Part shown: one piece after another, positions 9,055-13,234 of the stretch
Layout: each line of letters opens with the position of its first letter
Position numbering within the stretch: the stretch's first letter is position 1
DNA from: Clostridiales bacterium
GTDB lineage: Bacteria > Bacillota > Clostridia > Oscillospirales > Oscillospiraceae
Assembly: GCA_902363045.1 (NCBI GenBank)
Contig: CABIYX010000048.1
Span: 1-14,080 of the forward strand
Reading direction: 5' to 3'
DNA length: 14,080 bases
Program-made: the position numbers and the translations under genes
Notes under the pieces: model-generated
Told to the model about the DNA's origin: nothing
Seen by the model: only the letters and a program-made list of their open reading frames with translations
Databases searched by the model: none

Positions 9055-9072
9055 CAGAAAGAGGTGCGTTTC

Positions 9073-9831
9073 ATGTATTCCATCGATTTGAACAGCGATA
9101 TGGGCGAGAGCTTCGGCGCTTACCGCATCGGAAACGATGAGGGCATCATCCAGCATATCACCTCCACCAATGTGGCCTGCGGCTACCACGCCGGGGATCC
9201 CATGGTGATGGACAAGGTGGTGCGCATGGCCAAGGAGCGGGGCGTGGCTGTGGGCGCGCATCCCGGCTACCCCGACCTGATGGGGTTCGGCCGCCGGAAG
9301 ATGACGTTGTCTGTGGACGAGGTCAAAAATTACATGAAGTATCAGATCGGAGCCCTTATGGCGTTCACCCAGAGCTATGGGCTGAAGCTGCAGCACGTGG
9401 CGCCCCACGGCGCGCTGGGCAACCTGTGCCAGTACGACCGTGAGACCTCCCGGGCCATCTGTGAGGCCGTGTATGAGATCGATCCCTCCATCCGTATCTT
9501 CTACTGCGCGGGGGCCGTGCTGGGGGAGGAGGCCCAGAAGATGGGCCTGAAGACAGCGGCGGAGATCTTCGCCGACCGCGCCTATCAGGAGGACCTGTCC
9601 CTGGTTCCCCGGAAGCAGCCAGGCTCCATGATCACAGATGAGGATCTGGCGGTGGAGCGGTGCGTCAAAATGATCAAGGAGCACAAGGTCACCGCCATCA
9701 CCGGCAAGGAGATCGAGATCCAGGGGGATACCCTGTGCGTCCACGGGGACGGCGCCAAGGCCCTGGCCTTTGTGGAGCGCATCAAAAAGGAATTCCAGCA
9801 GGAAGGGATCCAGATCCGGAACTTCCTGTAA
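9073..9831 (+). CDS. pxpA: 5-oxoprolinase subunit A family protein (LamB/YcsF)
   Basis: This 252-residue protein is a full-length LamB/YcsF family member, a deacetylase-like TIM-barrel subunit of 5-oxoprolinase. It shows DLNSDMGESFG (5-15), NVACGYHAGDP (33-43), GAHPGYPDLMGFGRR, FADRAYQEDLSLVPR and VHGDG near the end. The family signature usually read as HVKPHGALYN is HVAPHGALGN here, so the conserved Lys and Tyr are replaced by Ala and Gly. I use ATG 9073, 7 nt after AGAGGTG and matching the family N-terminus; a GTG at 9064 is in frame but overlaps that site. It is the last gene of the symporter-pxpBCA unit and is followed by a terminator. Because of the altered signature, activity on 5-oxoproline itself is likely but not certain. 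Confidence 0.9.
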   Translation: MYSIDLNSDMGESFGAYRIGNDEGIIQHITSTNVACGYHAGDPMVMDKVVRMAKERGVAVGAHPGYPDLMGFGRRKMTLSVDEVKNYMKYQIGALMAFTQSYGLKLQHVAPHGALGNLCQYDRETSRAICEAVYEIDPSIRIFYCAGAVLGEEAQKMGLKTAAEIFADRAYQEDLSLVPRKQPGSMITDEDLAVERCVKMIKEHKVTAITGKEIEIQGDTLCVHGDGAKALAFVERIKKEFQQEGIQIRNFL

Positions 9832-9871
9832 GGCCGGCTCCCGCCGGGGTGAAACGGTGAGCGCGGAAACC

Positions 9872-9908
9872 AAACCCCATCGGCCATAATCGGCCGATGG
9901 GGTTTCTG
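9872..9908 (+). terminator. terminator of the pxp operon
   Basis: AAACCCCATCGGCC (9872-9885) pairs perfectly with GGCCGATGGGGTTT (9892-9905) around ATAATC, 40 nt after the pxpA stop. The T-run is short (TTTCTGT). It also keeps pxp transcripts apart from the tRNA promoter that follows. Confidence 0.8.
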
Positions 9909-9952
9909 TCGATCAAAGCCGGGCGGATGAATGAGGAACGGACAGGTTTTCG

Positions 9953-9981
9953 TTGACAGAGTAAAGGGAAGAGGATAAAAT
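9953..9981 (+). promoter_or_regulatory. near-consensus promoter of the tRNA-Arg locus
   Basis: TTGACA (9953-9958), 17 nt, TAAAAT (9976-9981). It is the strongest sigma-A promoter in the window and lies 38 nt before the first tRNA-Arg copy. It now reads through the truncated copies into the intact tRNA at 10224. Confidence 0.85.
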
Positions 9982-10019
9982 GGAGGAACAGAGCGGCAGA
10001 GCTGCCACCCTGTATTTCT

Positions 10020-10060
10020 GCGCCAGTAGCTCAATAGGATAGAGCGCACCCCTCCTAAGG
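10020..10060 (+). pseudogene. host tRNA-Arg(CCU) cut off in the anticodon arm
   Basis: GCGCCAG (10020-10026), TA, a D arm GCTC..GAGC, the anticodon-stem strand CACCC and loop CTCCTAA (anticodon CCU) form the 5' half of a tRNA-Arg. After CTCCTAAGG the sequence leaves the tRNA: the next bases (TTATG) do not pair with CACCC and no strand complementary to GCGCCAG (CTGGCGC) follows. It has the strong promoter at 9953-9981 and a different sequence from the intact copy at 10224, so it is read as the native host gene broken by integration. Its 3' half should lie at the far end of the element, beyond 14080. Confidence 0.75.
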
Positions 10061-10260
10061 TTATGCTCTACCGGCCGCCTTACGATGAAAAGTGATCGTT
10101 ACCAATTTTAATTGAATAGATGTCTCTGTAGCTCAGCAGGATAGAGCGTTCGCCTCCTAAGGTTATGCTCTACCGGCCGCCTTACGATGAAAAGTGATCG
10201 TTACCAATTTTAATTGAATAGATGTCTCTGTAGCTCAGCAGGATAGAGCGTTCGCCTCCT
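10051..10260 (+). repeat. 102-bp tandem repeat of element end plus tRNA-Arg 5' half
   Basis: CCTCCTAAG recurs at 10051, 10153 and 10255, exactly 102 nt apart. The two full units (10051-10152, 10153-10254) appear identical and consist of a non-tRNA stretch starting GGTTATGCTCTACCGGCC and a tRNA-Arg 5' half (GTCTCTGTAGCTCAGC and on) cut at the same point of the anticodon loop. The third occurrence of the core continues into the intact tRNA. This is what repeated integration at the core CCTCCTAAG would leave, each event adding one copy of the element's left end. A simple slippage duplication is the alternative. Confidence 0.85.
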
Positions 10261-10300
10261 AAGCGAAAGGCCGTGGGTTCGAATCCCGCCAGGGACGCCA
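10224..10300 (+). tRNA. tRNA-Arg(CCU), probably carried by the element
   Basis: A complete 77-nt tRNA: acceptor GTCTCTG/CAGGGAC (one G-T pair), D arm GCTC..GAGC, anticodon arm TTCGC-CTCCTAA-GCGAA, T arm GTGGG-TTCGAAT-CCCGC (one G-T and standard pairs), discriminator G and encoded CCA. The anticodon CCU reads AGG. Its acceptor and anticodon stems differ from the broken upstream copy (GCGCCAG, CACCC), so it is not that gene restored. It follows AT-rich sequence rather than its own clear promoter and probably relies on the promoter at 9953. A terminator follows at 10309. Confidence 0.93.
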
Positions 10301-10308
10301 GCAAACAC

Positions 10309-10348
10309 GCCGAAAACCTTTGATTTATCAGGGTTTTCGGCTTTTCTT
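10309..10348 (+). terminator. terminator after tRNA-Arg
   Basis: GCCGAAAACC (10309-10318) pairs with GGTTTTCGGC (10332-10341), followed by TTTTCTT, 8 nt after the CCA end of the tRNA. Confidence 0.85.
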
Positions 10349-10388
10349 ATTTCTGCGGCTTTTGTGGCTTTTTTGCAAAAAACCTTGG

Positions 10389-10563
10389 TTTGCTAACATT
10401 TGCTAACGAGATTTGGCCTTTTGCTAAGAAAGGCGGTAAGTCAGAGGTTCGATTTTTACCAAAGGAACTTGCAAACATTTGTTAGCAGAAATTAGAGGAA
10501 GTTGCAAACAAAATCGCGAATTTGCTAACATCGCTCAAAAATGCTTTCAGAACCTTGCTAACA
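10389..10563. repeat. cluster of TTTGCTAACA repeats, candidate integrase arm sites
   Basis: The ten-base TTTGCTAACA occurs at 10389-10398 and 10521-10530, with close variants at 10399-10408 (TTTGCTAACG), 10420-10429 (TTTGCTAAGA), 10554-10563 (CTTGCTAACA) and inverted at 10480-10489 (TCTGCTAACA on the minus strand). Two related TTGCAAACA sites are at 10469-10477 and 10502-10510. The cluster lies in a non-coding 300-nt gap between the tRNA core site and the integrase gene. Known tyrosine integrases bind short repeats of this kind with their N-terminal domain, so arm-type sites are the likeliest role; excisionase sites are possible for some. Confidence 0.75.
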
Positions 10564-10648: not shown

Positions 10649-12040
10649 TTATAAAGCTTTTGCCAGCTGCTTGAGCAGTGCGGCAGTTTCGGGATTTTTA
10701 AGCAGTTCCAGTATCTTTGCTGCATCACTTTCATCACTTTCAGTGACGGCAGTATCCGCAGTTTTAGGCTCTGTATCTTCAACAGGGTCAGGAGTCTTGG
10801 ATGAGTAAAATGCTTCCTCCAATCGCTGAGCGTTTATGCAGCGATCCTCGTCGATGATGTGAGAGTAGACATCTGCAACCATTTTTACCTGAGCATGACC
10901 AGAGTCGCCCTGGACGGATTTCATATCGCCGCCATTGAGTTTCAGCTTGTAGGTGATACTGGAGTGACGGAGAGAATGGAATACAACATGAGGCAGTCCG
11001 TTTTCTTTGATAAGTTTATTGAAAGCACGGTTAATCACCTGGCTTTCCATCGGACGGCCATTGCTGGAGCAAAAGACCAGGTTATTGTCGATGTATTCAT
11101 CTCCAAACAGATCCATCAGCTCATCAATTTCTTTTTTTCTTTCTACCAGCATATAGGCAACTGTTTTCGGCAGGTACACACGGCGAATACTGGTTTTGGT
11201 TTTAGGCTCTTTCAGGACCAGAGCAGTATGGGTACTGGCTATGCAAGGTGGAAACTTCTTAATAACACCTTTGTCACTCAAATCGTCCAATGCACCTCGT
11301 GTAACCCGTTGCAGCTCTTTGTTGACGAATATATAAGCTGAACCATTTTCTATGCTCTGTGGTGCAATATCAATGCAGTCCCAGGTAAGGCCCAGCATTT
11401 CGCCAATGCGTAAAGAGCAGGAGAACGCCAGATTTAAGGCAAGGGAGAGTATAGGATCATCACAGACTTCCATCGCCTTGCTCAGCGTTTCGGCAGTCCA
11501 TATATCCCGTTCTTTATGTTCTTCTTTGGGAAGTGTCGCATTCAGAACAGGGTTACGGCTGATTAGTTCCCAACGCACCGCCTGATTAAAGGCACTGCGA
11601 AGTAGCTTGTGAATTTCTCTTACTGTATGCGGGGTCAGATATTCGCTTGTGGGTTTGCGGTTGTTGACGCTTACCGTTTTCACAGAGAGCAGATCGCGGT
11701 AATACTTATCCATCATCCTTGGAGTGATGTCGGATAGTAACATATCTCCGATAATAGGAGTTATGTAGTTTCTCGCCAGACCACGGCGGCTTTCATATGT
11801 TGACATTGCCCAGGTATTTACACCATAGATGGACATATATTCATCGAGCAGATCGTTCAGGGTCTTTGCCGTAGGAATAAAGAAGGTTCCAGAGTCCTGC
11901 TCATACTCAATTTGCTTTTTTCGTTTTTTTGCTTCTGCATTTGTGCTGAAGGTTTCCCAACGCTGTCTGCGTTTTCCGTTTTCATCTGTGTAATCATACA
12001 CCACAGAATATTTGCTTTTACGCTTCACGATAGATGCCAT
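10649..12040 (-). CDS. int: tyrosine recombinase / site-specific integrase
   Basis: This 463-residue integrase has an N-terminal arm-binding region (SIVKRKSKYSVVYDYTDENG, with WETF), a core-binding helical domain (~60-165) and a catalytic domain with the family residues in order: R211 (CSLRIGEM), a Lys in the KTKTSIRR turn (~280-284), H355-x-x-R358 (HSLRHSS), H382 (SGHAQ) and the nucleophile Y392 (ADVYSHI). It would join the element's core to CCTCCTAAG in tRNA-Arg. The C-terminus carries an extra acidic, Thr/Asp/Glu-rich tail (~415-463). Of two ATGs (12046, 12040) I prefer 12040, 8 nt after AAAGGAG; the other is too close to that site. The start lies inside the end of the upstream HTH gene, which suggests translational coupling. 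It reads toward the tRNA, and it is not the classic Tn916 Int by sequence. Confidence 0.95.
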   Translation of the reverse strand: MASIVKRKSKYSVVYDYTDENGKRRQRWETFSTNAEAKKRKKQIEYEQDSGTFFIPTAKTLNDLLDEYMSIYGVNTWAMSTYESRRGLARNYITPIIGDMLLSDITPRMMDKYYRDLLSVKTVSVNNRKPTSEYLTPHTVREIHKLLRSAFNQAVRWELISRNPVLNATLPKEEHKERDIWTAETLSKAMEVCDDPILSLALNLAFSCSLRIGEMLGLTWDCIDIAPQSIENGSAYIFVNKELQRVTRGALDDLSDKGVIKKFPPCIASTHTALVLKEPKTKTSIRRVYLPKTVAYMLVERKKEIDELMDLFGDEYIDNNLVFCSSNGRPMESQVINRAFNKLIKENGLPHVVFHSLRHSSITYKLKLNGGDMKSVQGDSGHAQVKMVADVYSHIIDEDRCINAQRLEEAFYSSKTPDPVEDTEPKTADTAVTESDESDAAKILELLKNPETAALLKQLAKAL

Positions 12041-12455
12041 TTTCATTGCTCCTTTCTGAGATTTTCACATAATGAGTTTGCTTTTGATACCAGGCTTCAA
12101 AACTGCTGGTAATGATACGAATTCTTCGATCAATCAAGGTCGTCTCAAAATAGCCCCTTTTAACAAGGTCATAAGCTGTGCCAGATTTCAGCCCCAAAAG
12201 ATCCGCCATTTCCGGTACTGACATCGTAGTATGCCGCCATTTCTCTCCGGGCGGTGTACCATCCACTTTTTTATAGTGGAACTGGCCGGCATACCAATCT
12301 TCAAAGCTATCCAGCATAACTCTCATTCGTCCGGCCACTTGAATTGTTTTGAAATAGTTCTTTTTAACCAACCAGTAGGATTCTACTTTACCAAGCCCAA
12401 GCATTTTGCCCATCTCTGGTACAGACATACTGGTCTTTACTCTTTGTTTTTGCAT
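12018..12455 (-). CDS. protein with two tandem excisionase-type HTH domains
   Basis: This 145-residue protein is an internal duplication: SVPEMGKMLGLGKVESYWLV (10-29) to SFEDWY (50-55), and SVPEMADLLGLKSGTAYDLV (79-98) to SFEAWY (119-124). Each half is a MerR-like excisionase (HTH_17) winged helix with the pattern helix, turn, helix, Arg-rich wing, then S-F-E-x-W-Y; a linker (56-77) with PPGEKW separates them. Such proteins bind and bend DNA at element ends to favour excision. The start at 12455 has GAGGAGG at good spacing, and the gene overlaps the integrase start by 23 nt, so the two are made together. The second helix of the first domain lacks the usual Ser/Thr-rich recognition pattern (KVESYWLV), so the two halves may read different sites. 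Confidence 0.85.
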   Translation of the reverse strand: MQKQRVKTSMSVPEMGKMLGLGKVESYWLVKKNYFKTIQVAGRMRVMLDSFEDWYAGQFHYKKVDGTPPGEKWRHTTMSVPEMADLLGLKSGTAYDLVKRGYFETTLIDRRIRIITSSFEAWYQKQTHYVKISERSNENGIYREA

Positions 12456-12817: not shown

Positions 12818-13198
12818 TTACGGAGCCTCCATTTCCTCCGGAATATGAATATCTAAACTAACTTGCAGAGCATCATCAATCGCTCTCATTTCTTCGCGAG
12901 ATACGCGCCCAATGTACGATAAAACACGCCTTTTATCAATCGTTTTAATTTGCTCCAGCAGAACAACAGATTTCAGCCCAAGCTCTGGAACGCTCTCCAG
13001 TGCATAGTGCGTGGGCAGCTCCTTTTTCTTAATCCATTTACTGGTGAGCGGAGCTACGATCAAGGTGGGGCAGAAAAAATTCCCCACATTGTTTTGAAGA
13101 ACCAGGACAGGACGGGTGCCGCCTTGCTCTGATCCAAAATAAGGGTTCAAATTGGCATAATATAAATCCCCACGCTTATAAATCCAATCTTCTTTCAT
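12818..13198 (-). CDS. MazF/PemK-type endoribonuclease, no recognisable antitoxin
   Basis: This 126-residue protein is a MazF family toxin: RGDLYYANLNPYFGSEQGGT followed by RPVLVLQNN (9-37), with R29 and T52 (VAPLTSK) at the places of the catalytic Arg and Thr of Bacillus MazF, and LPTHYALE after a lysine-rich turn. Such enzymes cut single-stranded mRNA at short motifs. The start at 13198 lies 6 nt after AGGAGG; an ATG at 13204 abuts that site. MazF genes usually follow a small AbrB- or RHH-type antitoxin gene. None is visible: upstream lie only a hairpin and a 33-codon ORF, downstream an excisionase-like HTH. It may be an orphan nuclease, be restrained by a neighbour or by a chromosomal MazE, or serve element control. 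Confidence 0.92.
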   Translation of the reverse strand: MKEDWIYKRGDLYYANLNPYFGSEQGGTRPVLVLQNNVGNFFCPTLIVAPLTSKWIKKKELPTHYALESVPELGLKSVVLLEQIKTIDKRRVLSYIGRVSREEMRAIDDALQVSLDIHIPEEMEAP

Positions 13199-13234
13199 GT
13201 TCATCCTCCTATGTTTTGAGATTTGATTATGTAA

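Follow-up and report, generated by a model that had tools for sequence, protein, structure and literature searches.

The DNA analysed here (the window) spans 14,080 nucleotides of contig CABIYX010000048.1 from a member of the Clostridiales (assembly GCA_902363045.1) and contains the left part of an apparent integrative and conjugative element (ICE), which interrupts a host tRNA-Arg(CCU) gene at its anticodon loop and carries a tRNA-Arg(CCU) gene of its own. The features of the locus are listed in Table 1.

Broken and intact tRNA genes in the window

Only the 5' half of the host tRNA gene is present. It comprises the acceptor strand GCGCCAG, the anticodon-stem strand CACCC and the loop CTCCTAA, and is followed by non-tRNA sequence. 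Behind it lie two 102-bp units that are 100% identical over their entire length. Three tRNA-Arg(CCU) 5' halves are thereby arranged in series, one from the host and then one per unit, the last of which belongs to an intact gene. A single copy of the unit is found in OY725843. The preliminary description of this DNA had recognized the break directly behind the anticodon loop, the strong promoter in front of it and the downstream intact tRNA with the same anticodon and other stems, and all three stand as described. It had overlooked the second orphan 5' half (10122-10160, within unit 1) and the serial nesting described below.

Table 1. Positions of the features of the tRNA-Arg(CCU) locus and of the neighboring genes in the window.
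Feature	Position	Strand	Remarks
LamB/YcsF gene, host DNA left of 10020	9064-9831
Sigma-70-type promoter of host tRNA, TTGACA-17-TAAAAT	9953..9981	+	11/12 consensus matches
Orphan 5' half, host tRNA-Arg(CCU)	10020..10058	+	Terminates with anticodon loop; pairs 7+5 with host 3' half of genome G012
Crossover core CTCCTAA (anticodon loop), copy 1, left element boundary	10052..10058	+	Left of core host-variable, right of core common
102-bp unit 1	10059..10160	+	63-bp leader, element tRNA 5' half and core; identical to unit 2
102-bp unit 2	10161..10262	+	Content as unit 1; its 5' half is part of the intact tRNA
Intact element-borne tRNA-Arg(CCU), acceptor GTCTCTG/CAGGGAC	10224..10300	+	ARAGORN; Rfam 68.5 bits
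Tyrosine integrase	10649..12046	-	Phage_integrase PF00589, E 5.7e-19
Helix-turn-helix protein	12018..12455	-	HTH_17

The intact gene, read as tRNA-Arg(CCT), is the only tRNA detected across the window by ARAGORN and Rfam, and a 77-mer identical to it is present in 9 of the loci L082-L093. The host 5' half forms only 4 of 7 acceptor pairs and 2 of 5 anticodon-stem pairs with the 3' half of the element, and ARAGORN detected no tRNA gene (0) in the chimera of the two. Because of this poor pairing, and since the chimera yields no tRNA, the host gene is not restored. An inverted repeat (CCGAAAACC/GGTTTTCGG) followed by T-rich DNA is located 3' of the intact tRNA (10312-10350) and is probably its terminator; it was not called in the scan that detected the promoter.

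The unit, its nesting and its far ends in related genomes

Species genomes were scanned with an alignment of the integrase; of the 373 related stretches, the 79 best-matching named loci were retained. It is 99-100% identical in 14 of these 79 loci, which suggests recent transfer. Nine of the 14 (C. citroniae, Clostridium sp. 1001271st1, GAM79, Holdemania, Yanshouia, CCNA10, Neobittarella, Enterocloster and Emergencia) harbor the leader and the intact tRNA 3' of a tRNA 5' half, in four a foreign right end is followed by the 3' half of the element itself, and in one no core is seen. When both strands were searched, the integrase adjoined a tRNA-Arg(CCT), whole or half, in 56 of the 79 loci, the other 23 being unmatched by the strict pattern. 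A search with 10059-10420 revealed a Subdoligranulum variabile record that matches the full query length with 98.8% identity; it contains one unit behind a different 5' half (acceptor GTCTCCG) and no readable right end. The DNA to the left of the core thus depends on the host, and that to the right is common to the hosts. That the unit recurs in further gut Firmicutes, there preceded by different 5' halves, identifies it as part of the element. That the element carries the replacement tRNA, as had been proposed, is borne out by the Subdoligranulum record together with the nine named genomes.

In several relatives, elements are nested within one another. Genome G012 harbors an element B inside the tRNA of an element A; the right end of B is followed by the 3' half of A and a related integrase, then by an A-type right end and the 3' half of a third tRNA that has lost its 5' half, and finally by the host 3' half. 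The tRNA of B is split in CE91-St56 by a 10.4-kb element that encodes an integrase, TraX and an AAA_25 protein, and in Eisenbergiella tayi by another element, on a single contig. A 12.9-kb insertion in G041, with the same left end as in CE91-St56, splits a tRNA with the same stems and another leader. Nesting is contained in single contigs in G012, G041, G081 and G083, and runs across contigs in G093 and Brotaphodocola; for Faecalibacterium longum, as for Brotaphodocola, it is inferred across contigs. Five orphan 5' halves and an intact gene stand in a row in Angelakisella, as seen with a permissive pattern. The 5' pattern, to which intact genes contribute as well, was present in 38 of 64 genomes in a sample of the genus; in 17 of the 64 it occurred two or more times on one contig. 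Tandem 5' pairs at close spacing were found in 18 of 295 genomes order-wide and in 1 of 398 phylum-wide. As the layout recurs in other genomes, and a reversed control pattern had no match in the genus, order or phylum sample, it is more than chance.

Identical doubled units are also present in GAM79, Neobittarella and G033. The two units of the window may be the footprint of a second copy that inserted into the tRNA of the first, and the body of this second copy would since have been lost or would lie further right. The doubling alone might instead have arisen by unequal recombination or slippage between repeated tRNA halves, with no second insertion, a possibility that falls only somewhat short of an even chance. 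The complete identity of the units in the window is consistent with such an event, as is Neobittarella, which has a doubled unit and a single element body: the 3'-half pattern occurs there at two places only, the element's own and the host's, so that the doubled unit needs no second body. The same picture would result, however, if a second copy had inserted and the two copies had then recombined, and boundaries located exactly at the core fit both. For the window, a second insertion with subsequent loss of one copy and recombination between repeats would both do.

The patterns for 3' and 5' halves were run genome-wide in 27 genomes and followed by stem pairing. The host 3' half that the preliminary description expected at the far end of the element was found in relatives, at a distance of 6.3 kb in G033, 48 kb in G001, 61 kb in Neobittarella, 64 kb in Holdemania, 96 kb in G017 and 232 kb in G012. 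The last of these genomes matches 9800-10420 of the window over its full length at 83%, with a tRNA at the corresponding place. The right end in the relatives comprises the 3' half only, and no tRNA is rebuilt there. Among the matches listed, a segment of about 100 bp just past the host 3' half of G012 (L197) is found again in many genomes of the genus, often in several copies. A search with the flank of the window locus, a query that is partly dispersed repeat, yielded no element-free copy among the matches listed.

The genomes whose ends were retrieved contain 31 orphan 3' halves, and 25 of these form 12 of 12 pairs with an orphan 5' half of their own genome. In the cross-genome control, 80 of 1256 pairs reach 12/12, and some of the genomes concerned share an element. 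All 14 rejoined genes that were tested read as tRNA-Arg(CCT). The gene rejoined from G020 is identical in 77 of 77 bases to unbroken genes in G002, G022, G059 and G061, whose fetched loci of 1.8-3 kb contain no match to the integrase of the window. The tRNA of B rejoined from CE91-St56 and from Eisenbergiella tayi is that of the window, and the H tRNA rejoined from Hungatella is the intact tRNA of CE91-St56. The other 10 rejoined genes have no identical copy among the fetched loci, and an unbroken counterpart was found for the G020 tRNA only. The unbroken tRNA of G022 may itself have come with an element, since another core lies upstream of it.

It is highly improbable that the element is a conventional tRNA-targeting island, with a 3' fragment that restores the host tRNA and odd 5' halves that are scars of duplication. 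Known islands are described as restoring their target (PMC4383910). The leaders of several families other than that of the window begin with an apparent decayed tRNA 3' half, which suggests that these elements descend from ordinary restoring ones, and an orphan 3' half of G008 pairs with the intact gene of that genome. No fragment of the element rebuilds the host tRNA, however: in the family of the window the two halves pair at few positions and their chimera is no tRNA, and, of the 25 matched cases, 20 have an intact tRNA whose 5' half pairs incompletely with the 3' half that was displaced (3 pair fully, 2 are unscored).

Several points weigh against the explanation proposed below. The window contains the left part of the element, and its right end lies outside. 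Six of the 31 orphan 3' halves have no orphan partner with 12/12 pairs. The 5' half that belongs to one orphan 3' half of G012 is lost, one orphan 3' half of G087 and that of G096 reach only 11 pairs, for G780 the fetched loci contain no orphan 5' half, and one orphan 3' half of G776 resembles a gene with an indel. The pairing in G008 would be expected after a rearrangement or from an element that restores its target. In G770, G779 and G782 (3 of the 25 matched cases), the stems of the intact tRNA are the same as those of the displaced one.

Bacteria commonly have tandem tRNA genes, but it is highly unlikely that the host already had the GTCTCTG tRNA as the second gene of a tandem near which the element merely landed, since a 150-bp piece of leader and tRNA, of which two leader versions exist, is 92-100% identical to that of the window in the eight best-matching genomes, across Eubacteriales, Peptostreptococcales (Emergencia) and Erysipelotrichia (Holdemania), and leader and tRNA adjoin an integrase that is at least 99% identical, yet the sequence left of the core differs.

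Type of carrier, proposed insertion and expression

The window shows the first 4 kb of the element only, and the type of carrier was judged where the full length is visible, in the G012 copy. A scan of 10 proteins, seven of them from element B of G012, revealed the domains of a relaxase, a coupling protein and a TraG-like ATPase. With integrase, relaxase, coupling protein and mating-pore ATPase, the G012 copy has the constituents of an ICE and not those of a temperate phage, and the element thus appears to be ICE-like. The leader pattern had no exact match (0) in viral_contigs.

Taken as a whole, the observations are in all likelihood best explained by a non-restoring insertion into the anticodon loop by elements that supply their own tRNA, which is then targeted in turn. 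The ICE-like element would use tyrosine recombination to enter the tRNA-Arg(CCU) gene at its 7-bp anticodon loop. As the recombining sites share little beyond the loop, the host gene would be split and not restored. The host 5' half would remain at the left end and the 3' half would be displaced to the far right end, as observed in the relatives, and directly behind its left core the element would bring a full tRNA-Arg(CCU) of its own, preceded by a short leader, the arrangement seen in the window. This tRNA would take over the decoding of AGG. Since it contains the same loop, it would also be the next target; later elements would insert into it and nest inside the earlier one, and each would add one 5' half on the left and one 3' half on the right, as in the nested relatives. 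The common core (CTCCTAA) comprises 7 bp and no tRNA is rebuilt at either junction, the right one being known from relatives, which is what characterizes tRNA-dependent integration. In addition, the leader family of the window contains GCTCTA six bases past the core (10059-10072), mirroring a TAGAGC located six bases before the core in many targets. At the same offset, other leader families contain GTTACA or GTTATA, and some show a similar mirror site. GCTCTA and TAGAGC look like a pair of inverted integrase sites.

The promoter of the host tRNA is the sole promoter-like site in 9880-10480 (1 observed versus 0.4 expected from shuffles), and the leader of the window reaches a score of 6 of 12. 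In the relatives, where at least 9 of 12 consensus matches were required, a promoter was found at 20 of 38 array fronts, rows that are non-independent and of which at least two (L209, L214/L217) are in fact leaders, versus 4 of 39 leaders; shuffles gave 8% and 4%. Because most element leaders, those of the window's family included, have no recognizable promoter, the host promoter probably also drives the element tRNA of the window, which would be read through the broken half. Some elements bring their own promoter, as the leader of the family with tRNA GTCCATA contains TATAAT and the Monoglobus element has an 11/12 site. Among the fetched loci, one intact CCT tRNA per genome was recognized in 30 of 32 genomes. 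G017 and G776 have none by that pattern, and G017 does have one by the analysis of stem pairing. AGG is rare in the host part of the window, where it makes up 3 of the 120 Arg codons of seven genes, and tRNAs other than tRNA-Arg(CCU) might read this codon.

It is rather probable that the sole tRNA-Arg(CCU) gene of many gut Clostridia is owned by a relay of mobile elements, in which each incoming element disrupts the copy then in use, places a mostly promoterless copy of its own downstream of the host promoter and is itself targeted next, with units perhaps also gained or lost by recombination at the 7-bp core. The tandem 5' halves would then be a readable record of insertions in their order. 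A 7-bp target in a conserved anticodon loop frees the element from matching the host 3' half, and this freedom may explain why one element is found behind unrelated tRNA halves in several orders. Handing a decoding tRNA to mobile DNA may tie the host to the element. Programs that identify islands by a restored tRNA and a fragment may misread or miss such elements.

Related systems and other genes of the elements

In tRNA-dependent lysogeny, phages that integrate via a short core within a tRNA gene also carry a compensating tRNA (Guerrero-Bustamante and Hatfull 2024, PMC10865867), and the unit of the window likewise carries a tRNA-Arg(CCT). Those carriers are phages, mainly actinobacterial, whereas the elements described here are ICE-like and reside in gut Firmicutes. 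The phage tRNA need not adjoin the crossover site; here it lies directly behind the left core and is mostly without a recognizable promoter. The authors of that study speculate that the tRNA gene of the plasmid may serve as attB for the integration of a second one, whereas serial insertion into the element tRNA can here be read in genomes. In Sinorhizobium meliloti, a host tRNA is substituted by a phage-related one (PMC11476347), and a foreign tRNA thus also replaces that of the host upon integration. Bacteria and elements differ from ours, and arrays of halves are not described in the available part of that report.

Repeated insertion at one RNA gene also generated a row of gene fragments in the tandem islands at ssrA of Dehalococcoides (PMC3146451). 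These involve 20-bp repeats of the 3' end of the gene and serine recombinases, and ssrA is kept at the edge, whereas here 5' halves accumulate and the functional gene is replaced each time. Islands of the Islander type (PMC4383910) share tyrosine integrases, crossovers in the anticodon loop and, in some cases, a tandem arrangement; Islander relies on the island restoring its target gene, which the present elements do not do. The literature seen, in which subscription journals are thinly covered, contained no description of conjugative elements with nested replacement of a tRNA. The principle is thus known from phages, and what is new are the conjugative-type carriers, the position of the tRNA beside the crossover site and the serial nesting readable in the genome.

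Past the integrase, the element encodes two helix-turn-helix proteins, a PemK/MazF-like protein (12818-13204) and a protein with a weak match to sigma-70 region 4, under the curated cut-off. The helix-turn-helix protein adjacent to the integrase is possibly an excisionase or a regulator of the element, and the PemK/MazF-like protein could aid its maintenance. Element B of G012 (L031) harbors a GTPase gene, which resembles a ribosomal-protection tetracycline resistance gene by its first residues, and a large serine recombinase (PF07508); cargo has therefore moved into this element. Many distant related integrases (L099-L160, about 54-76% identity) are found on the opposite strand, facing the displaced 3' half. 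They target the same tRNA loop and, because of this orientation, are placed near the right end of their elements.
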